64,000 nt of DNA from Natronococcus sp. AD-5 (GTDB taxonomy: Archaea > Halobacteriota > Halobacteria > Halobacteriales > Natrialbaceae), in assembly GCF_030734285.1 (NCBI RefSeq), contig NZ_CP132294.1, positions 3,720,001 through 3,784,000 of the forward strand, given 5' to 3'. Shown here one piece after another: positions 3,098-22,172 of this stretch. The number at the start of each line of letters is the position of its first letter. Positions within the stretch are counted from its first letter, which is position 1. Made by a program: the position numbers and the translations under genes. The notes below the pieces were generated by a model that was not told the DNA's origin, did not search any database, and worked only from the letters and a program-made list of their open reading frames with translations.

Positions 3098-3550
3098 CTA
3101 CTTCCGACGCTCGCGGTGGCGTTCCTTCGCTCGCCGGTAAGTCTCGTCTTCCCGGACCCGTTCCCAGTAGGACTCGAAGACGAGCGCCGCTGCGCGTTTA
3201 TCCTTGTCGGCCCACCGCTCCGGCTCGCGTTCGTTCCCGTCGGCGTCGTACTTCCGTCCGCCGGGATACTTCGCGTAGCGCATGGCTCGAGTGTATCCCA
3301 TCTGGAGGTACTTCCGGGCCATGTCCATCCCCGGGAACTCGTCGTTCTCGCGGTACCGTTCGTACCGCTCGTAGATCGCTTCGGCCGACTCTCGAGCACT
3401 CTCTTCGTCCGCGTACGACCACAGCGGCAGCAGTTCGCTCTTGTACGGTTCGACTTTGAAGACACCTTCCTCGCCGCGGCCGATTTCGTACTCGTCTGGC
3501 CGTTCGCGGAAGTCGATGTCGTACTCGGGTCCGTCGGAGTCGTCAGCCAT
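3098..3550 (-). CDS. DUF4385 family protein
   Basis: This is a 150-aa soluble protein taken from the internal ATG at 3550 (MADDSDGPEYDIDFRERP). An upstream ATG at 3583 would add 11 poorly conserved residues. The motif chain RPDEYEIGRGEEGVFKVEPYKSELLP, DMARKFLQMGYTR-like (here DMARKYLQMGYTRAMRYA) and GGRKYD is characteristic of DUF4385, a family found in bacteria, archaea and phages with no assigned function. It stands alone between TatA and a divergent thioesterase gene. The 270 bp between this gene and tatA show nothing recognisable. Confidence 0.85.
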   Translation of the reverse strand: MADDSDGPEYDIDFRERPDEYEIGRGEEGVFKVEPYKSELLPLWSYADEESARESAEAIYERYERYRENDEFPGMDMARKYLQMGYTRAMRYAKYPGGRKYDADGNEREPERWADKDKRAAALVFESYWERVREDETYRRAKERHRERRK

Positions 3551-4834: not shown

Positions 4835-5413
4835 TCACCCGGACCCGAATTCGAGGTCGTCGCCGTCGACGACTTCGCCGAACAGCCACTCGGCGTGCTC
4901 CAGGGCGTACTCGCGGTGTTCGTCCTCGATCGAGCCGATGCAGTCCTCGACGAGGAGCGGTCGAAAGTCCCGCAGCCCGGCGCTGCCGCCGGTGTGGAGC
5001 ACGCAGACGTTCGCGAGGGTGCCGCAGATGACCAGATCGCGGATGCCGCGCGCGTTCAGCCACCCCTCGAGTTCGGTGTTGTAGAACGCGTCGTAGGTGT
5101 GTTTCTCGACGACGTGATCGTCTTCCAGAACCGCGAGCTCCTCGACGATCTCTGCCTCCCAGGAGTCCTCGAGGACGTGCTCGCCCCACTGTTCGAACTC
5201 GTTGTAGTAGTAGGCCTCGTCGAACTGCTCGGGCGGGTGGACGTCCCGCGTGAAGATCACCTGCGCGCCGGCCTCGCGGGCGCGCTCGACGAGGGTCGCG
5301 ACCGGCTCGATGACCGCTTCGCTGCCCGGTGCGTACAGAGTGCCGTCGGGATGGCAGAAGCCGTTTTGCATGTCGACGACCACGACCGCGGTGTTCGCTG
5401 GCTCGAGGTGCAT
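4835..5413 (-). CDS. Cysteine hydrolase of the nicotinamidase/isochorismatase family
   Basis: The product is 192 aa from ATG 5413 (MHLEPANTAVVVVDMQNGFC). The catalytic triad of the family is visible: Asp14 in VVDMQ, Lys104 in VVEKHTYDAF, and Cys137 in GTLANVCVLHT with the preceding cis-peptide region. Nicotinamidase converts nicotinamide to nicotinate in NAD salvage. A nicotinate phosphoribosyltransferase lies 3.4 kb away at 8774, which supports that role. Isochorismatase-type hydrolases share all these motifs, so substrate identity is inferred. Confidence 0.85.
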   Translation of the reverse strand: MHLEPANTAVVVVDMQNGFCHPDGTLYAPGSEAVIEPVATLVERAREAGAQVIFTRDVHPPEQFDEAYYYNEFEQWGEHVLEDSWEAEIVEELAVLEDDHVVEKHTYDAFYNTELEGWLNARGIRDLVICGTLANVCVLHTGGSAGLRDFRPLLVEDCIGSIEDEHREYALEHAEWLFGEVVDGDDLEFGSG

Positions 5414-5513
5414 GTTCGAACGTAGGGTGGCCAACGCAAAAACGTTCGCGCGGCCGACATTCGATCGCCGTGCTTTTTATCCGCGCTTTCTTATTGGTCC
5501 CTATCCATTGCGA

Positions 5514-7232
5514 ATGAACCCGACCCGAACGCGTCTGCTCGTCGTCCTCGTCGCGGTACCGTCGCTCCTGATCGTGGCGGCGGCCGGCGGCGCCGTTCCG
5601 GGAGTGCTCTCGGACGGCTCGAGCGCCACCGAAAACGGCGAGCCGGCCGCCGCCGACCGTCCGGCCGACCCCACCACCGAGGATACCGTCGGCTACGTCG
5701 AGGGGTACTGGTACGACGACGAACTCCCCGTCGACGAACGAGAAGACGGCGTCGTCGAGGACGACGAACTCGAGGCGGTCGTCTACCGGTCGATGGCCCG
5801 CGTCGAGGTGATTCGCGGACTGACGTTCGAGGACGACGTTCCGGTCGAGGTCGTCTCGCGCGAGGAGTACCGGGAGAACGACGACACGTTCCTCGACGAC
5901 GCCGGCGACGAGGAGCGGCTCCAGCTGAACGTCAACACGGAGGCGCTGTTCGCGGTCGACCGGAACACCGACGCCACCGACGAGCAGGAGGCCCTCTACG
6001 GCGGCGCCGTCGACGGCTACTACGAGCCGAGCACCGATCAGGTCGTCATCGTCTCCGAGAACCCGGAGACGCCCGAACTGAACGAGGTCGTCCTCGGCCA
6101 CGAACTGCTCCACGCCCTCCAGGACCAGCACTTCGACCTGGCGTCGTACGAGCGGGAGACGATCGACCAGGACAACGCCAAGAACGGCCTCGTCGAGGGC
6201 GACGCCGTCCGGGTCGAAACCGAGTACGAGGACCGCTGCGCCGCCGAGTGGGACTGCACCCTCCCCGACGGCGGGGCGACGGCGCCGCCGGATCTCAACT
6301 GGGTCATGTACACGACGATCTTCCAGCCGTACAACGACGGTCCCGACTACGTCGGTCACCTGCTCGAGCAGAGCCAGGCGCAAAGTGCCTCGAGCGACTC
6401 GACCGGCGAGGGAAGCGAGCCGGGAGAGCGGGACGACTGGGACGCCGTCGACGCGGCCTACGACGACCCGCCGGCCAGTAGCTCCGAAGTGATCCGCCCC
6501 GGCGAGGACCGCGAACCCGCCGATATCGAGGTCGAGGACCGCTCGAACGACGAGTGGCGCCAGCTCGAGATCGACGGCGAGGTCGCGAGCGAGACGTACG
6601 GCGAGGCGGGGATGGTCGCGATGTTCGCCGGGGACGCACACGATCGGACCCAGCCGTCGGTGATCGGCCAGGACGACTTCTTCGCCGAGGACCTGCAGGG
6701 GTACGACTACGACCAGCCGTACACCGACGGCTGGGCCGGCGACGAACTGGTCACGTACGTCACCGACGAGGCGACCGAGACGGACGATCCGGCGGCGGCC
6801 GCCGCACACGCCGGCTACGTCTGGGAGACCGAGTGGACCTCGAGCGAGGACGGTCAGCAGTTCGTCGACGGCTACCTGCAGTTGCTCGACCTCCACGACG
6901 CCGAGGCCGTCGACGGCTACCAGGATACCTACGTGATCGACGACGAGTACCCCGGCGCCTACCACGTCGACCGCGACGGCGAGTCGGTGACGATCGTCCG
7001 CGCGCCGTCGGTCGACGAACTCCCGAACGTCGATTCCGGCGCCGCACCCGAAGGCGAAGACACGCTCGAGATCGAGGACGCCGATCCGGAGACGACCGAC
7101 GACGATGGCGGGGACGCGCCCGGTGACGGAAGCAACGCGATCCCCGGCTTCGGGGTTCCCGTTGCGGTCGCGGCCGTCGCCATCGCCTTACTCGCCGGTC
7201 GCGTTCGGAGCGCGGGCCGAGAGCGGCCCTGA
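5514..7232 (+). CDS. Hvo_1808-like surface metalloprotease-like protein with PGF-CTERM anchor
   Basis: This 572-aa protein starts at ATG 5514; an AT-rich box (gctttttatc at 5472) lies about 40 bp upstream. Residues 5-28 are a hydrophobic signal sequence. A zincin motif HELLHALQDQHFD lies at about 196-208, with YRSMARVEVIRGLTFE before it. Repeated acidic segments follow. The C-terminus has IPGFGVP plus a hydrophobic helix and a basic tail (RVRSAGRERP), the PGF-CTERM signal recognised by archaeosortase A. It is therefore expected at the cell surface, lipid-anchored after processing. Proteolysis is inferred from HExxH only. A paralogue follows directly. Confidence 0.88.
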   Translation: MNPTRTRLLVVLVAVPSLLIVAAAGGAVPGVLSDGSSATENGEPAAADRPADPTTEDTVGYVEGYWYDDELPVDEREDGVVEDDELEAVVYRSMARVEVIRGLTFEDDVPVEVVSREEYRENDDTFLDDAGDEERLQLNVNTEALFAVDRNTDATDEQEALYGGAVDGYYEPSTDQVVIVSENPETPELNEVVLGHELLHALQDQHFDLASYERETIDQDNAKNGLVEGDAVRVETEYEDRCAAEWDCTLPDGGATAPPDLNWVMYTTIFQPYNDGPDYVGHLLEQSQAQSASSDSTGEGSEPGERDDWDAVDAAYDDPPASSSEVIRPGEDREPADIEVEDRSNDEWRQLEIDGEVASETYGEAGMVAMFAGDAHDRTQPSVIGQDDFFAEDLQGYDYDQPYTDGWAGDELVTYVTDEATETDDPAAAAAHAGYVWETEWTSSEDGQQFVDGYLQLLDLHDAEAVDGYQDTYVIDDEYPGAYHVDRDGESVTIVRAPSVDELPNVDSGAAPEGEDTLEIEDADPETTDDDGGDAPGDGSNAIPGFGVPVAVAAVAIALLAGRVRSAGRERP

Positions 7233-14574: not shown

Positions 14575-14637
14575 GCCGCTGAGCAGCGCCGAATTCGGAG
14601 GAAAAGCGTTAAGGGAGTTAGCTCCGGCTATCATGAT

Positions 14638-15069
14638 ATGAACGTCGAACTCCCGTTCGCCCCGGTAGATACGATCATTCGGCGGAACGCGGGCGAACTT
14701 CGGGTGAGTGCCGACGCGTCGGAGGAACTCGCAAAGCGCATCCAGGAACGCGGAAGCGAGCTCGCGATCGACGCCGCCGAGCGAGCGACCGCCGACGGAC
14801 GAAAGACGCTCATGGCCGAGGACTTCGAGGTCGAAGCGGTCATCGACAAGGACGACCTCGAACTGCCGGTCGCGCCCGTCGACCGCATCGCGCGCCTCGA
14901 GATCGACGACCGGTACCGCGTGGCGATGGACGCCCGTATCGCGCTCGCGGACATCCTCGAGGACTACGCGGACAACGTCGCGCGGGCGGCGGCGATCCTC
15001 GCTCGACACGCCGACCGCCGAACGATCACCGACGACGACATCGAGACGTACTTCTCGTTGTTCGAGTGA
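14638..15069 (+). CDS. Archaeal histone with two fused histone folds
   Basis: The product is 143 aa with two histone-fold repeats. The first, LPFAPVDTIIRRNAGELRVS, continues into RATADGRKTLMAEDFEVEAV. The second, LPVAPVDRIARLEIDDRYRV, continues to HADRRTITDDDIETYFSL. This fused-dimer form is typical of haloarchaea. It binds DNA or regulates transcription more than it compacts the genome in these organisms. The next gene, a histone deacetylase homologue, starts one base after its stop codon, so the two are almost certainly co-transcribed. Confidence 0.95.
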   Translation: MNVELPFAPVDTIIRRNAGELRVSADASEELAKRIQERGSELAIDAAERATADGRKTLMAEDFEVEAVIDKDDLELPVAPVDRIARLEIDDRYRVAMDARIALADILEDYADNVARAAAILARHADRRTITDDDIETYFSLFE

Positions 15070-15070
15070 G

Positions 15071-16090
15071 ATGCAGTTCGGCTACAGCGAGGTCTGCCTC
15101 GCACACGATCCCGGGTCGCGCCATCCCGAGGCCCCGGACCGGCTGCGCGCGATCCGCGAACGGCTGAAGAAGAAACACGGCGTCGAGTACGTCGACGCCG
15201 ATCCCCTCGGCATCGACGCGATGGACGGCGTCCACGAGCGAGCGTACCTCGAGTCGGTCGAGGAGTTCTGCGCCGACGGCGGCGGAAGCTGGGACCCCGA
15301 CACCACCGCAGTCGAGGAAACCTGGGACGCGATCCGGCACAGCGTCGGGCTCGCTTGCTGGGCTGCGGACGCGGCGCTCGACGGAGCCGACGGCCGCAAG
15401 ACGCCCTTCTCGCTCGGCCGCCCGCCCGGACACCACGCCGTCTACGACGACGCGATGGGCTTTTGCTTCGTCAACAACGTCGCCGTCGCCGCCCAGCACG
15501 CCCTCGAGACCCGCGACGTCGACCGGGTCGCGATCGTCGACTGGGACGTCCACCACGGGAACGGAACGCAGGACATCTTCTACGATCGCGAGGACGTGTT
15601 CTTCGTCTCGCTCCACGAGCAGGGGCTGTACCCCGGCACCGGCGAGGCAGACGAAATCGGCGAGGGGGATGGCGAGGGAACGACCATGAACGTCCCGATG
15701 CCGGCCGGAACGGACGACCTGGGATATCTCGCCGCGATCGACGGACCGATCGCGGCCGCCCTCGACGCCTACGACCCCGACCTGCTGCTCGTCAGCGCGG
15801 GATTCGACGCGCACCGCCACGATCCGATCTCGCGCATTCGGCTCTCGACGGAAGCCTACGCCCTGATGACCGATCGACTCCGGACGCTGTCCGAAGCGAC
15901 GGACGCCGCGCTCGCGTTCGTGCTCGAGGGCGGGTACGGTCTGGACGTGCTGGCCGACAGCGTCGCCCTCGTCCACGAGACGTTCGACCGACGGGAGCCG
16001 ATCGAACCGGACGGGGAACGCAGCGAGGAGGCGGCCGAGGTGATCGAGGCGGTCGCCGACGCGCACGGTCTCGAACTGAACCTCGACTGA
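15071..16090 (+). CDS. Histone deacetylase family protein (AcuC/HdaI-like)
   Basis: This 339-aa zinc hydrolase has all class I/II HDAC catalytic motifs: GRPPGHHA (117-123, catalytic His pair), FCFVNNVA, and VDWDVHHGNGTQ (156-167), where Asp159 and His161 are zinc ligands. SAGFDAHRHDP provides the third ligand, and LEGGYG carries the transition-state-binding residue position. The start ATG 15071 is one base after the histone stop. Archaeal members deacetylate lysines or small acetyl-polyamine-type substrates; linkage to the histone gene suggests, but does not prove, action on the histone. Confidence 0.93.
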   Translation: MQFGYSEVCLAHDPGSRHPEAPDRLRAIRERLKKKHGVEYVDADPLGIDAMDGVHERAYLESVEEFCADGGGSWDPDTTAVEETWDAIRHSVGLACWAADAALDGADGRKTPFSLGRPPGHHAVYDDAMGFCFVNNVAVAAQHALETRDVDRVAIVDWDVHHGNGTQDIFYDREDVFFVSLHEQGLYPGTGEADEIGEGDGEGTTMNVPMPAGTDDLGYLAAIDGPIAAALDAYDPDLLLVSAGFDAHRHDPISRIRLSTEAYALMTDRLRTLSEATDAALAFVLEGGYGLDVLADSVALVHETFDRREPIEPDGERSEEAAEVIEAVADAHGLELNLD

Positions 16091-16111: not shown

Positions 16112-17518
16112 TCAGGGGCGCGGATCGAAGTATTCTGCGAGCGGTTCGCCGAACTCGGGGAGCAGCCCCGTCGTTTCGGTGCCGACCAGCACCTCGTAGC
16201 CGTCTTCGAGCGCCGTCTCCACGTGCGCGCCGAGCCCGACGTCGAAGAGACGGTCGCTCTCGAGGAAGGCGCGGGCGGTGGTGAACTCGCGCTCGCGCTC
16301 CGTGACGTAGCGATCGTCCTCGATGAACGGGCCGTAGGCGTCGGGATCGTCCGCGTAGGCCTCGTAGAACCCTTCTGCGTGGCTGCGGACGTGGACCGGC
16401 GGGCCGGCGTGTCGTTCGACCGCCGGTCGCTCGCCGACGGCGAGTTCGACGAAGACGACGGCGACATCGTCGGCGAACGTCGTCGCCCGGAAGACGTCGA
16501 AGCCGCGGTCGTCGAGCCCGTTCGCGATTCCCTCGAGGGACTTCTGCAGCTGGGGATAGAGCTGGTCGTCGACGAGGTCGGGGCTGTCGAAGCGGACGGC
16601 GACTGGCGTGGTGGCGCGACGCTCGAAGTGGTCGCGAAGCTGCGTGGCAGTCAGGACGTCCGGGTCGACGGGTTCGAAGTAGTCGACGGACGGGCCCTCG
16701 AGGAACTCGCGGGCGTAGTGCTGGAACCGGGCGACGTTCGCGGCCGAACAGACGGCGGCGACGTTGCGTTCCGGATCGGTCGGGTCGATGACGACGAGCG
16801 GATCCCCGAACGTTGCTCGGCCGTGATTCTCGGGATCGAGTTCGACCGGCGGCTGCCAGTCGGCCGCGGCCTCGAGCAGCGGCCGAAAGCCGCCGTACTC
16901 GAGCACGAGGAGTTCGGTGAGGTAGCCGCTAAACCCGCGGGTTCGGAGGTCGCTGCCGTAGACGCCGATCCCCTTCAGGAACTGCTTGGTGAGTCGGACG
17001 TCGTCCGCGAGATCGCCGTCGAGGCGCTCGGCGAGATACCGCGTGTGGAAGGGGGTACGATCGACGGCCGAGCGGATCTCGGTGGCCGACTCGAGTCGGA
17101 AACAGGGGACGACGTCGACGGCGAACCCCTCGACCTCGCCCTTGACGTAGGGGTGTTCGGCGTACTCCTCGTGGCCGTCGGGCAGCGTCGCGTGGCCGAC
17201 CTCGAGGCCGTACTCCTCGAGCGTTTCCCGGTCGAGTTCGGGAGGGAAGCGGACGAAGACGTCGATGTCGCGGTCGCCGCTGATCCAGGTGTTTCGCGCG
17301 GTCGAGCCGACCTGTATCACGTCGGCGTCGGCGCACAGCTCGGTCGCCGCGGTTTCGGCTCGTTCGGCGAGCGTCGCCGCGACCTCGCGCAACCGGGCGC
17401 GTTCGTCTTCGTCGGGATCGACTCGGTCGCGAACCCGGCTCACGACGGTCTCGAAATCGTCGTCGGCGCTCGGTCCGCCCGGCCCGCTCTCGTCGCGGTC
17501 GGCCTCGTCCTCGCTCAT
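16112..17518 (-). CDS. cca: CCA tRNA nucleotidyltransferase (archaeal class I)
   Basis: This 468-aa protein starts at ATG 17518 (MSEDEADRDE). The nucleotidyltransferase motif QVGSTARNTWISGDRDIDVFVRF, with the metal-binding DxD, is followed by FAVDVVPCFR (third carboxylate) and the archaeal substrate-binding block DDVRLTKQFLKGIGVYGSDLRTRGFSGYLTELLVLEYG. It adds or repairs the 3' CCA of tRNAs, consistent with the tRNA genes here lacking encoded CCA. An upstream in-frame start at 17602 would add a non-conserved extension. Confidence 0.95.
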   Translation of the reverse strand: MSEDEADRDESGPGGPSADDDFETVVSRVRDRVDPDEDERARLREVAATLAERAETAATELCADADVIQVGSTARNTWISGDRDIDVFVRFPPELDRETLEEYGLEVGHATLPDGHEEYAEHPYVKGEVEGFAVDVVPCFRLESATEIRSAVDRTPFHTRYLAERLDGDLADDVRLTKQFLKGIGVYGSDLRTRGFSGYLTELLVLEYGGFRPLLEAAADWQPPVELDPENHGRATFGDPLVVIDPTDPERNVAAVCSAANVARFQHYAREFLEGPSVDYFEPVDPDVLTATQLRDHFERRATTPVAVRFDSPDLVDDQLYPQLQKSLEGIANGLDDRGFDVFRATTFADDVAVVFVELAVGERPAVERHAGPPVHVRSHAEGFYEAYADDPDAYGPFIEDDRYVTEREREFTTARAFLESDRLFDVGLGAHVETALEDGYEVLVGTETTGLLPEFGEPLAEYFDPRP

Positions 17519-17613
17519 CGAGATGAGGTACTCGAGCGGTGCGTGAAAGCGTGTCGAACTCGGGGAAGGCAAAACGAAAGCCCTATCAAACACTCGCGAC
17601 AACGTGAGGATAA

Positions 17614-17985: not shown

Positions 17986-18548
17986 ATGTCCGATCGATCG
18001 GCGTATTACGAGGAACTCGAGCAGCCTCAGAGACGCGGACAGGCGACCGAAGCGATCCTGCAAGCGGCGTTCGTGGTGCGCGACGTCCCCGTACTCGTTC
18101 CGGCGTACGACGACGAGCCGTACGATCTGGTCATCGAAGTCGGCGGACGGTTCCACAAGATCCAGTGTAAGACCGCGTACCCGAAAAGCGACGGAACGGT
18201 CGCGTTCGAAACGGTCAGCACGCGCCGACGCCGAGACGGCTACGACCGGCGCGGATACGACGATCGTGCCGAATATACGAACTCCTGTAAGTCATTTCCG
18301 GCGCAACCGCGTCCATCTGCGGTCCCGCCGGGAAATCGGTACAGCAATCCGTATACTTCGTCGTCTCCGATCCGATCACCGACAATCGGTATCTGATCCC
18401 CGTCTCCGAGGCCGCAACCGGGAAGATGGAGATTCGGTTTCGCGAACCGAAGAACGGACAGCGCGTCGGTATCAACCGGTACGAGGACTACCTGCTCGAG
18501 GAGCGACTCGAGACGCTCCGTGATCCGGCTCAGTTCTCCGGTAACTGA
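17986..18548 (+). pseudogene. PD-(D/E)XK endonuclease-like gene, frameshifted
   Basis: The first frame gives MSDRSAYYEELEQPQRRGQA, then a nuclease-like core (DEPYDLVIEVGGRFHKIQCKTAY: D, E and QxK arrangement) typical of group-I-intron-associated/HJC-like PD-(D/E)XK proteins, and degenerates after DDRAEYTNS near 18290. The expected continuation (SVYFVVSDPITDNRYLIPVS, then ATGKMEIRFREPKNGQRVG) is present in another frame and ends at TGA 18546-18548. A single indel around 18290-18330 therefore splits it. It overlaps the convergent regulator gene by 19 bp and lies beside the tRNA-Asn scar, so it may be cargo of a lost element. Confidence 0.75.
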
Positions 18549-18952
18549 CCGACGGAATCCAGCGGGACGAGCAAGTAGTCGACGGTTCCGACGCCGTCGA
18601 CGGCCCGCAGCTTCCCGACGAACGACGAGATCTCCTCGAGTTCGGCCTCGAGTACGAACAGGTCCAGACAGTAGTCGTCGACGTGGCTGTGATCGTTCGC
18701 CGCGACGGCGGTGTCGAACTCGTGGCGGAGCTCCGTGACGCGCCGCTCGACACGGGGCGTTCCGAAGTCGTAGCGGACGCTGACGGTTCCCACGAGGGGC
18801 CGGTCCTCGAAGCGCCCGTCCTCGAACTCGGTGAGAAGCGATCTGGCGCTCTCTCGGACGACTTCGCTGCGACCGGTGTACTCGTGTGCCGCTGCGTGAG
18901 CGTCGAGTTGCTCGAGGAGTTCCTCCGGCATCGAGACGCTGACGACGGGCAT
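18530..18952 (-). CDS. NikR-like ribbon-helix-helix metal-responsive regulator
   Basis: This 140-aa protein has an N-terminal CopG/RHH domain (VVSVSMPEELLEQLDAHA, GRSEVVRESARSLL) and a C-terminal ACT-like NikR domain. The region NDHSHVDDYCLDLFVLEAE resembles the NikR Ni site (HxH then Cys), but the His-to-Cys spacing is one residue shorter than in E. coli NikR. It is divergent from two COG0523 GTPases, with palindromes in the shared 105-bp promoter region, so it probably represses them or itself in response to a metal. Metal identity is unknown. Confidence 0.85.
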   Translation of the reverse strand: MPVVSVSMPEELLEQLDAHAAAHEYTGRSEVVRESARSLLTEFEDGRFEDRPLVGTVSVRYDFGTPRVERRVTELRHEFDTAVAANDHSHVDDYCLDLFVLEAELEEISSFVGKLRAVDGVGTVDYLLVPLDSVGQLPEN

Positions 18953-18970
18953 ACTACTAAATCATACGTA

Positions 18971-19033
18971 CAAATTAATATAATTTGTTATCCGAAGCCA
19001 CTCCCGAATGCAATAGCTAGTATTAACAATACT
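18971..19033. promoter_or_regulatory. Two palindromic operator-like sites in the divergent promoter
   Basis: CAAATTA-ATA-TAATTTG (18971-18987) is a perfect 7+3+7 inverted repeat lying next to the NikR-like gene start. AGTATT-AAC-AATACT (19019-19033) is a perfect 6+3+6 inverted repeat lying 25-39 bp before the ATG of the COG0523 gene, where a TATA box would be for a leaderless transcript. Their position between divergent metal-related genes suggests binding sites of the RHH regulator. That is inference. Confidence 0.55.
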
Positions 19034-19057
19034 CGAGTTCGTATCCACAACCGATCC

Positions 19058-20266
19058 ATGACCGACGAGCGCATTCCGGTGACCGTTCTGAGCGGGAGTC
19101 TCGGCGCGGGAAAGACGACCGTTCTCAACCACGTACTGACGGCCGACCACGGCCTCGAGGTCGCCGTCGTCGTCAACGACATGGGCGACGTCAACGTCGA
19201 CGCCGAGCACGTCACCCAGCAGTCCGACCTGGGCGGCGAGGAGGAGATCATCGAGCTGTCGAACGGCTGTATCTGCTGTCGCCTCCGCGGCGACATGCTC
19301 GACGAGGTCGGTCGACTCGCGGACCGCCGCGAGTTCGACTATCTCCTCGTGGAGTCGTCGGGCATCTCGGAGCCGATTCCGGTCGCCCAGACGTTCGCGA
19401 TGGGCTTCGAGGACGCCAGCTTCGATCCGACGGACACCTACGAACTCGACACGATGGTGACGGTGGTCAACGCCCACGGCTTCTGGGAGTCGTTCGACCC
19501 CGGCGAGGCGCTCGCGAGCGAGGAGCTCGCCGGCGATTCGGCTCGCGTTCCCGAGGAAGTCCTCCTCGACCAGATCGAGTTCTGCGACGTCCTCCTGTTG
19601 AATAAGTGCGATCTCGTCCCCGACGACGCGCTCGAGGAGATCGAAACCGTCCTCGAGCGGCTCCAGCCGCGCGCGACGCTCGTTCGGACCGAGTTCGGCG
19701 ACGTCGATCCCGACGAAATCCTCGGAACGGAACGGTTCGACTTCCGGGCGGCCTCGAACTCGGCGGGCTGGAAACACGAACTCCAGCACGAACACCACCA
19801 CGATCCACAAGAGGAGCACGGCGTTACCTCGTTCGTCTACGAGCGCGACCGACCGTTCTACCCCGGGCGGATCGCAGCGCTGCTTTCCGACCTGCCGGAC
19901 GAACTGATCCGCGCGAAGGGCTTCTTTTGGAGCGCCGGCCGCGAGGACGTCGCGATGGGCGTCGACAAGGCGGGGACGTCGGTCCGCGCCGGTCCGTCCG
20001 GGCAATGGCTGGCGACGCTTCCGGAAGCCGAACGCGAGCAGTACTTCGCCGCTCGCCCCGGCCTCGAGGAGGACTGGGACGAGGAGTGGGGCGACCGGAT
20101 GACGCGGCTCGTCTTCATCGGCCGCGAGTTCGACGGGGAGACCCTGACCGAGCGACTCGACGACTGTCTGCTCACCGACGCGGAGTTGGAGGACGACGAC
20201 TGGTCGACCTACGACGATCCGTTCGAACCGGAAGAACGACGTGAACTCGCGCTCGCGAACGACTAG
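19058..20266 (+). CDS. COG0523/CobW-like G3E GTPase (metal chaperone)
   Basis: This 402-aa protein starts at ATG 19058. P-loop GSLGAGKT is at 13-20, the metal-binding CxCC within GCICC at 70-74, VESSGISEP follows, and LLNKCDL is the guanine-specificity NKxD-type motif. The C-terminal CobW_C domain ends near DDCLLTDAEL. A short His segment (HELQHEHHHDPQEEH) precedes the C-terminal domain. Such GTPases deliver or insert Zn, Co, Ni or Fe. It is followed with no gap by a second paralogue and is divergent from a NikR-like regulator. Confidence 0.92.
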   Translation: MTDERIPVTVLSGSLGAGKTTVLNHVLTADHGLEVAVVVNDMGDVNVDAEHVTQQSDLGGEEEIIELSNGCICCRLRGDMLDEVGRLADRREFDYLLVESSGISEPIPVAQTFAMGFEDASFDPTDTYELDTMVTVVNAHGFWESFDPGEALASEELAGDSARVPEEVLLDQIEFCDVLLLNKCDLVPDDALEEIETVLERLQPRATLVRTEFGDVDPDEILGTERFDFRAASNSAGWKHELQHEHHHDPQEEHGVTSFVYERDRPFYPGRIAALLSDLPDELIRAKGFFWSAGREDVAMGVDKAGTSVRAGPSGQWLATLPEAEREQYFAARPGLEEDWDEEWGDRMTRLVFIGREFDGETLTERLDDCLLTDAELEDDDWSTYDDPFEPEERRELALAND

Positions 20267-21538
20267 ATGTCCGTTCCGGTTACCATCCTCTGTGGCGAAC
20301 TCGGCGCCGGGAAGACGACCTTGCTCTCGGGGCTGCTCGAGTCCGCAGAGCGCGATATCGCAGTACTGGTCAACGACGTCGGCGAGGTCAACGTCGACGC
20401 CGACCTCGTGGAAGCGCGCACCGACCTCGAGACCGGCGACGAGGTCGTCGCCCTCGAGAACGGCTGCATCTGCTGTAGCCTCGGCGGCGACCTCTCGCGG
20501 GCGGTGATTCGGCTCTGGAAAGAGGCGGAGTTCGACCGCCTCGTGATCGAAGCGTCGGGCGTCGGCGAACCCGAACCGATCGCCCACCAGTTCGTTCGCG
20601 GTCCCGCGAGCGGGCCGTACGACCTCGAGTCCGTCGCGACCGTCGTCGACGCGCGACGGTTCTACGACCGGTTCGCCGAGGTCGACGGTGAGCCGGTTCG
20701 ACAGGGACCCGACGAAACCGGAACCCGCCCGCTCGCGGATCTGCTGCTCGAGCAAGTGGAGTTCTGCGACCTGCTCGTCGTCAACAAGTGCGACCTCGTC
20801 GACGAGGCCGAACGCGAGCGCGTCGTCGCGTTGCTCGAGGCGCTCCAGCCCGGTGCCGAGATCGTGACCACCGAGTACGGGGCCGTCGACCTCGAGACCC
20901 TTCTCGACGACGACTACTTCGACTTCAGCGCCGCTCGCGAGTCGGCCGGCTGGAAGCAGGCGATCGAGACCGACGCGGACGATCACGAGCACGCGGACGA
21001 ACACGGTCACGATCACCATCGCGAACGCGGCGACGACGGCGACCACGACCACGCGCATCCGCCCGAACGGTACGGCATCGAGGTCGAGACGTACCACCGG
21101 CGCCGACCGTTTCATCCGGGTCGCTTCGCATCTCTCCTGCGGTCGCTCCCCGACGGCCTCGTACGCGCGAAGGGGCTCACGTGGATCGCCGGCCGCGAGA
21201 AACAGGCCGTCACGATGAGCGTCGCCGGCGCGGAGACGACGCTCGAGGTCACCGGCCGCTGGATCGCCAGCTTCTCCGAGGACCGCCAGGAGACCTTCCG
21301 GCAGGGCCAGCCCGGCCTCTCGTGGGACGAAGAGTGGGGCGACCGCGAGAGTCGGCTGGCGCTCATCGGTCGCACCCTCGCGTGGGACGACCTCGAGTCC
21401 CGTCTCGACGACTGTCTCCTGACCGACGCCGAGATGGACGAGGACTGGACCGACTACGAGAACCCCGCCCCGACGGGCGTGGGCGAGACGGTCACGATCT
21501 CGAGCGACGAGCGAACGGCAGGGGCCTCCCGGGAATGA
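20267..21538 (+). CDS. Second COG0523/CobW-like G3E GTPase with His-rich loop
   Basis: This 423-aa protein has its ATG directly after the preceding TAG, so the pair is translationally coupled. Motifs are GELGAGKT (10-17), GCICC (66-70), IEASGVGEPEP and VVNKCDL. A strongly His/Asp-rich insert (about 236-265: DDHEHADEHGHDHHRERGDD, then more His) can bind several metal ions, typical of zinc or cobalt chaperones. The C-terminal half parallels the upstream paralogue (RRPFHPGRFASLL, WGDRESRLALIGR, DDCLLTDAEM). Confidence 0.92.
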   Translation: MSVPVTILCGELGAGKTTLLSGLLESAERDIAVLVNDVGEVNVDADLVEARTDLETGDEVVALENGCICCSLGGDLSRAVIRLWKEAEFDRLVIEASGVGEPEPIAHQFVRGPASGPYDLESVATVVDARRFYDRFAEVDGEPVRQGPDETGTRPLADLLLEQVEFCDLLVVNKCDLVDEAERERVVALLEALQPGAEIVTTEYGAVDLETLLDDDYFDFSAARESAGWKQAIETDADDHEHADEHGHDHHRERGDDGDHDHAHPPERYGIEVETYHRRRPFHPGRFASLLRSLPDGLVRAKGLTWIAGREKQAVTMSVAGAETTLEVTGRWIASFSEDRQETFRQGQPGLSWDEEWGDRESRLALIGRTLAWDDLESRLDDCLLTDAEMDEDWTDYENPAPTGVGETVTISSDERTAGASRE

Positions 21539-21590
21539 CGGCTCCCGATCCGGGGAAGCGCTTATCGCCCCCCAGTCTGGAGATACGAAC

Positions 21591-22172
21591 ATGACTGCTG
21601 ACAGAGCGGACCGACGGAGCACGGACGACCACGGCCACGACATCATCGATCCGCTGTACGTCGGGATCGTCACGGTCTCGAGTTCGCGCGCCGCGGAATC
21701 GGATCCCGACGACCCGGGTGGCGATACGATCCAGGAGTGCTTCGAGTCGAAGGGCCACGAGGTTCGGGAACGCGTGCTGGTGCGCGACGACTACTCGTCG
21801 ATTCGAACGGCGGTTCGCGGACTCGTCGCCCGTCAGGACGTCGACGTCGTCTGCACCACGGGCGGCACCGGCGTCACGGCCGACGACGTCTCGCCGGAAG
21901 CGACGTCGTCGCTGTTCGAGCGCGACCTGCCGGGCTTCGGCGAACTGTTCCGTTCGCTCTCGTGGGACGAGGTCGGCACCCGCGCGATAGCCTCGAGGGC
22001 GACGGCCGGGATCGCCGTAGATACGCCGGTGTTCTGCCTTCCGGGGAGTACGAGCGCCTGTCGGACCGCCTGCGAGCAGCTGATCGTCCCCGAGACGCCC
22101 CACCTCGCGGGGCTGGCGACGCGCCACCGCGCCGGGACGACCGACCAGACGCTCGCGGATTACGACGAGTAG
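21591..22172 (+). CDS. moaB: Molybdenum cofactor biosynthesis protein MoaB/MogA family
   Basis: This 193-aa protein shows the MoaB fold: YVGIVTVSSSRAAESDPDDPGG, VLVRDDYSSIRTAVRGLVAR, CTTGGTGVTADDVSPEAT (molybdopterin-binding GGTG with Asp), ELFRSLSWDEVGTRAIASRATAGI and FCLPGSTSACRTACEQLI. The family adenylylates molybdopterin before metal insertion. Length and motifs are complete. It may belong with the upstream GTPases (52 bp away) as part of a metal-handling cluster. Confidence 0.93.
   Translation: MTADRADRRSTDDHGHDIIDPLYVGIVTVSSSRAAESDPDDPGGDTIQECFESKGHEVRERVLVRDDYSSIRTAVRGLVARQDVDVVCTTGGTGVTADDVSPEATSSLFERDLPGFGELFRSLSWDEVGTRAIASRATAGIAVDTPVFCLPGSTSACRTACEQLIVPETPHLAGLATRHRAGTTDQTLADYDE

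Follow-up and report, generated by a model that had tools for sequence, protein, structure and literature searches.

Does a histone gene that stands one base upstream of a histone deacetylase-like gene identify the histone as the substrate of its neighbor? The question is raised by a locus in a 64,000-nucleotide stretch of DNA from Natronococcus sp. AD-5 (hereafter, the window), part of a genome of 5.17 Mb in two contigs. A sequence-only reading had noted that the two genes lie one base apart, assigned them to a single transcript and raised the idea that the histone is lysine-acetylated and regulated together with the linked enzyme, whose implied substrate it would be.

Organization of the histone-deacetylase locus

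The one-base spacing was confirmed, and the positions of the two genes, their predicted promoter and their immediate neighbors are listed in Table 1. Profile searches of the window's own genome identified this histone as its sole PF00808 protein and this deacetylase as its sole PF00850 protein, together with one Sir2; the histone is also matched by the NCBIfam archaeal histone profile. The mechanical open reading frame list placed the start of the deacetylase at a GTG (position 14708). This start was discarded in favor of the ATG given in Table 1, because each of the 113 linked homologues described below has an ATG at the corresponding alignment position.

Table 1. Coordinates of the histone-deacetylase pair and adjoining features in the window.
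Feature	Position	Strand	Basis and remarks
RPA-like single-stranded DNA-binding protein, 494 aa	13090..14574	+	NCBIfam NF005551, E 3.8e-239; upstream neighbor
BRE/TATA-like box GGAAAAGCGTTAAG	14600..14613	+	Predicted promoter for a leaderless message of both genes; 25 nt from the end of its TTAA to the ATG of the histone
Archaeal histone, tandem two-fold doublet, 143 aa	14638..15069	+	ATG...TGA; two PF00808 stretches, E 5e-26
Codon of histone K56 (R55-K56-T57, fold 1)	14803..14805	+	K in 116/116 histones
Single G between histone stop and HDAC start	15070..15070	+	Read from sequence
Class II-type Zn-dependent lysine deacetylase (HdaI orthologue), 339 aa	15071..16090	+	ATG...TGA; PF00850, E 2.6e-86
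CCA tRNA nucleotidyltransferase	16112..17602	-	TIGR03671, E 9.6e-156; downstream, convergent with HDAC

The pair has a described counterpart in Haloferax volcanii, where the histone gene hstA (HVO_0520) is likewise followed by a co-transcribed class II deacetylase gene, hdaI (Hvo_0522). The H. volcanii genes are described as overlapping (PMC2946573, 2010), whereas one base lies between those of the window. The arrangement, the co-transcription and the idea of the histone as substrate are therefore already published for H. volcanii, in a paper that regards the histone as a reasonable HdaI substrate with conserved candidate lysines and describes proof as missing (PMC2946573, 2010). No later proof of regulatory histone acetylation in haloarchaea was found in the open-licence literature searched. 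In the Alba-Pat-Sir2 system of Sulfolobus, a deacetylase likewise reverses the acetylation of a chromatin protein (PMC2946573), but the chromatin protein is a different one, and the deacetylase is NAD-dependent and belongs to another family.

Conservation of the gene pair in Halobacteria

We drew a sample of 116 Halobacteria genomes, all of which match both the histone and the deacetylase. The histone gene precedes the deacetylase gene in the same order and orientation in 113 of these genomes, with gaps ranging from -4 to +16 nt: 0 nt in 28 genomes, -4 in 26, -1 in 14, +1 and +4 in 12 each, +2 in nine, +7 in five, +3 in four, and +6, +13 and +16 in one genome each. The sequence-only reading had called for a check of gene order in haloarchaea, and the order is thus kept in nearly the whole sample.

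Conservation extends to the neighboring genes. An RPA-like gene precedes the histone gene on its own strand in 111 of the 116 loci, at a distance of 38 to 2212 nt, and 95 of the 113 linked loci, not all of which were retrieved at full length, have a convergent CCA enzyme gene downstream. With both neighbors also kept, the conserved unit is a four-gene block, and the histone-deacetylase boundary is its tightest same-strand junction.

Transcription and translation of the pair

The regions upstream of the histone and deacetylase ATGs were searched for the promoter pattern G[GCA]?AAA-N2-5-TTA[AT]. Upstream of the histone ATG, this BRE/TATA-like pattern was found in 106 of 116 loci, ending 24-27 nt away from the start codon (25 nt in 94 of them); upstream of the deacetylase ATG, it was found in none of the 113 linked loci. 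A TTA is present within positions -34 to -21 of the histone ATG in 114 of 116 loci, against 8.8 expected from simple shuffles. The spacing of about 25 nt between box and ATG matches that of leaderless transcripts in haloarchaea. No Shine-Dalgarno-like 5-mer was found between -20 and -4 of the deacetylase ATG in any of the 113 loci, and a sigma-70 style promoter scan returned no promoter-like site.

The pair consequently has the layout of a leaderless bicistronic operon, with a box close to the start codon of the histone and no box ahead of the deacetylase gene, and this pattern, together with the short or negative gaps, makes it very likely that both genes are carried on one leaderless transcript. 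Having neither a box nor a Shine-Dalgarno-like 5-mer of its own, the deacetylase gene most likely depends on the histone message. The single transcript claimed in the sequence-only reading is hence well supported by the box pattern and the gaps, and agrees with the co-transcription reported in H. volcanii (PMC2946573).

Between the box and the histone ATG (14614-14637), single positions are also conserved (C at -13 in 111/116 loci, T at -1 in 103/116 and T at -7 in 92/116), and these are perhaps an operator or a start-site signal.

Older neighborhood and descent of the deacetylase gene

The comparison outside the class encompassed 40 Halobacteriota loci, with one deacetylase per genome, picked from 112 matching genomes to cover many families. 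The deacetylase gene is convergent with a CCA enzyme gene and a LigT/ThpR-like gene in 14 of these loci (L138-L151), an arrangement hinting at a link between the deacetylase and RNA-end genes. Four loci (L143, L144, L147 and L148) have a histone gene on the same strand no more than about 4 kb upstream. This difference in frequency suggests that the link between CCA enzyme and deacetylase is probably older than the histone operon. The four histone-bearing loci were considered as candidate operons outside Halobacteria and rejected, their histone and deacetylase genes being 0.6 to 3.2 kb apart with other reading frames in between.

A quick tree was generated for 74 deacetylases, including 29 of the 113 linked enzymes and several rows with long branches or odd composition. 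It places the 29 linked enzymes and the unlinked L128 and L129 in one clade of 31 (SH-aLRT 100). Nearest to this clade are L138, located by a CCA enzyme gene, and nine enzymes without that neighbor, which form a clade of their own (L156-L158, L163-L167 and L169), followed by L149-L151 and L147, again located by the CCA enzyme. The tree fits, but does not prove, descent of the linked deacetylase at its place beside the CCA enzyme gene. A late horizontal gain of the linked enzyme inside Halobacteria was dropped or left as a weak candidate, since the linked enzymes fall in one clade. L128 and L129 are second deacetylase copies in two genomes (G034 and G091), 58% identical and without a histone within the fetched 9 kb, and represent an unlinked HdaI copy.

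These neighborhoods bear on the possibility that histone and deacetylase have no functional link, being adjacent as parts of an inherited housekeeping block (RPA, histone, HdaI and CCA enzyme) in which HdaI would act on other proteins only. The conservation of the whole block and the prevalence, outside the class, of the CCA enzyme and ThpR context over histone proximity both argue for this explanation. It is nonetheless doubtful, because the histone-deacetylase gap is far tighter than the distance between RPA and histone, and because one promoter-like box is common to the two genes.

A single invariant lysine in the histone

The histone comprises two histone folds in one chain, as in HpyA/HstA-type doublets, and its solved relatives are HMfA, HMfB and the histone fold protein 1f1e. 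With 34 Asp and Glu residues against 19 Lys and Arg residues in 143 aa, it is an acidic doublet, and its length equals the median (143) reported for the cluster 3 "acidic doublet" histones (PMC13260811). Compared with the acidic doublets of Halobacterium salinarum (HpyA) and H. volcanii (HstA), it presents the same two-fold acidic chain, with no difference of kind seen.

Alignment of the 116 histones revealed K56 as the only invariant lysine, and as the sole lysine of the protein in 34 of them. The counterpart of K56 in fold 2 is R128 (R127-R128-T129), an arginine in all 116 sequences. This single invariant lysine and its arginine counterpart are new here. R55-K56-T57 aligns with the GRKT of HMfA. 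The RKT-type motif is a DNA-contact motif of archaeal histones, and K56 would by homology be located in the DNA-contacting L2 loop. With K56 as the sole invariant lysine, the acetylation hypothesis becomes a one-residue hypothesis. The conservation of K56 is in itself no proof of acetylation, given that the motif contacts DNA and that HMfA has GRKT as well.

The linked deacetylase

The linked enzyme matches the Hist_deacetyl profile (PF00850) with 290.1 bits, against a curated cut-off of 27.9. Residues H121, H122, D159, H161, D246 and Y289 are invariant in all 113 linked homologues; from HDAC structures, we take H121/H122 to be the His-His dyad, D159, H161 and D246 the zinc ligands and Y289 the catalytic tyrosine. 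The structure model of the enzyme has a mean pLDDT of 88, falling below 50 over the stretch that contains the His dyad (residues 119-131). Comparison of the model with solved structures yielded Z scores of 42.5-43.9 over 325-332 residues at 27-36% identity for the 50 structure matches listed, among them HDA15, Kdac1, HDAH/HdaH, HDAC6, HDAC4 and the like. The fold and all catalytic residues are common to class II HDACs, bacterial HDAH and the HDAC6 catalytic domains, from which the window enzyme differs in being one short domain. Judged by sequence and model, the enzyme should be an active acyl-lysine hydrolase. Trichostatin sensitivity has been cited as a sign of deacetylase activity in H. volcanii (PMC3510453).

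The substrate gatekeeper position was set by aligning Ile253 with its counterparts in HDAC6 (Lys in CD1, Leu in CD2), and by reference to HDAC10, in which the gatekeeper is a glutamate (E274 in the zebrafish enzyme; PMC5454378). All 113 linked homologues carry isoleucine at this position, and none the HDAC10-type glutamate. Polyamine deacetylases of the HDAC10 type are also marked by PACE, an additional one-turn helix that makes the active site narrower. It is accordingly highly improbable, given the isoleucine, that HdaI is an HDAC-fold amidohydrolase acting on acetyl-polyamines or other small molecules. Such enzymes do have the same fold, the HDAC10 gatekeeper is not a requirement in bacterial acetylpolyamine enzymes, and the 60 of 139 matches listed include five acetylpolyamine amido/aminohydrolases and four polyamine deacetylases HDAC10. 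All nine, however, are weaker than the HDAC6 and HDAH matches, and the 50 structures listed are of the types named above, although such a list does not prove other types absent.

Genomes without the linked enzyme

The linked deacetylase is absent in three of the 116 genomes, two from one genus (G001 and G007) and one from another family (G021). In the G007 locus (L123), the final codon of the histone reaches position 3429 and the convergent CCA gene is matched as far as 3437, with no deacetylase remnant between them; the histone gene of G021 is located between a Usp gene and the gene for ribosomal protein L15e. Joint loss of K56 and HdaI was not seen, K56 being kept in all three genomes.

Each of the three genomes has another deacetylase elsewhere, 37-40% identical and beside a hydantoinase-like gene. 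These enzymes group with deacetylases of Halobacteriota outside the class, some of which (L161, L162 and L168) share the same context. The second type coexists with the linked enzyme in G093 and, more distantly, in G090. Of the at least five genomes that have the second type, three have thus lost the linked enzyme, and no genome outside this set has done so, a pattern drawn from two lineages only, and one that suggests that the function of HdaI is general and that another deacetylase can take it over. Besides the three exceptional enzymes, 21 second deacetylase copies were found, eight of which were placed on trees (two on the tree of 74 enzymes and six on a further one).

A contig scan with the exceptional histone P0001 matched 17 named haloarchaea at 55-63% identity, the exceptional genus itself not among them. 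In all 17 loci the histone is followed directly, and on its own strand, by a deacetylase match, which begins within 25 nt of the histone match in 16.

Two further observations concern these loci. In L177 ("Haloferacaceae archaeon XH8"), the histone-adjacent deacetylase (5012-6445) is split over three reading frames, reflecting either a broken gene or sequencing errors; if real, the split would constitute a further natural loss. The second deacetylase type is found directly beside a hydantoinase/oxoprolinase-like gene in L125, L126, L127 and L187, as well as in L161, L162 and L168 (Pfam names of this context checked on L126), forming a recurring pair in a few haloarchaea and other Halobacteriota.

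Candidate substrates of HdaI

Genetic work in H. volcanii bears on the substrate. The deacetylase gene hdaI is described as not deletable (PMC2946573; repeated in PMC6267482), a second-hand statement that goes back to Altman-Price & Mevarech 2009 as given in PMC2946573; the synthetic lethality of pat2 and elp3 from the same 2009 study has since been overturned (PMC12323606). The histone gene hstA is deletable, with a growth defect, and its protein shows low expression and binds discrete sites (PMC10128011). The histone is therefore an improbable candidate for the essential HdaI substrate, unless its hyperacetylated form is toxic. This argument was not found in the open-licence literature, and may be in print elsewhere. 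Profile searches of 14 control genomes point the same way: PF00850 is present in nine, of which three have PF00808 and six have none detected, indicating that the enzyme family does not depend on histones.

We lean, by a modest measure, towards a leaderless operon whose enzyme is a general lysine deacetylase that has the histone as one target at most. Both genes would be driven by a single promoter located before that of the histone, and translation of the deacetylase would probably be coupled to the end of the histone frame, as the gaps suggest. The main and reportedly essential work of HdaI would be the general deacetylation of cellular proteins, presumed here to be its substrates, and the low-abundance, transcription-factor-like histone would be at most one target, through K56. 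We count in favor of a general deacetylase the large H. volcanii acetylome, with 1868 sites in 897 proteins (PMC10294847), and the presence of the second deacetylase type in all three genomes without the linked enzyme; the invariant catalytic residues and the Ile253 gatekeeper count for lysine deacetylation. Against a general role, the near-universal and very tight pairing with the histone exceeds what a general enzyme would need, and the essentiality of hdaI could reflect a toxicity of hyperacetylated histone that is absent when the histone itself is deleted.

The substrate proposed in the sequence-only reading is a conjecture already in print (PMC2946573) and is compatible with K56, but it is weakened by the contrast between hstA and hdaI deletions, by the retention of K56 without HdaI and by the control genomes with PF00850 and no detected PF00808. 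That reading is thus partly supported overall, with its observation confirmed, its operon supported and its substrate a published proposal. In its strongest form, HdaI would be a dedicated histone deacetylase, made together with the histone to keep K56 deacetylated, and acetylation of K56 would release DNA. The conserved operon, the one invariant lysine aligned with the GRKT of HMfA and the acetylated histones of Thermococcus (HTkB K35; PMC8775648) are consistent with such a role. We nevertheless consider it unlikely: the histone is dispensable and the deacetylase reportedly is not, the three genomes without linked HdaI keep K56, and the presence of the same GRKT in HMfA means that the motif need not signal acetylation. 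Moreover, PMC2946573 states that no acetylation was found in M. jannaschii or M. acetivorans histones, and neither HstA nor HVO_0520 is mentioned in the main text of the paper on the H. volcanii acetylome (PMC10294847).

A more specific proposal, which we regard as quite improbable, is that the pair forms a minimal one-site chromatin switch. Each doublet has a pair of DNA-binding L2 loops, only the first of which carries a lysine (RKT versus RRT in 116/116 histones), so that a single acetyl group could be placed on just one of them; HdaI would keep K56 bare, and the shared transcript would fix the ratio of enzyme to histone. If this were true, K56 acetylation would turn a sparse, transcription-factor-like histone off at its target sites. 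With this pair, the question of histone acetylation in haloarchaea, a group amenable to genetics, comes down to a single residue (K56) and a single enzyme.

Other features downstream of the pair

Beyond the CCA enzyme gene, a small open reading frame (17986-18396) matches the PDDEXK_5 endonuclease profile (E 3.7e-18) over profile positions 3-83 of 138, and may be truncated. Two adjacent CobW/G3E GTPase-like genes, named by eye, follow on the forward strand (about 19100-20266 and 20267-21538). They are adjoined by a NikR-like regulator gene on the reverse strand (18530-18952), and in this region (18530-21673) the CobW/G3E-like pair is spanned by a 903-aa open antisense frame (18962-21673, reverse strand).
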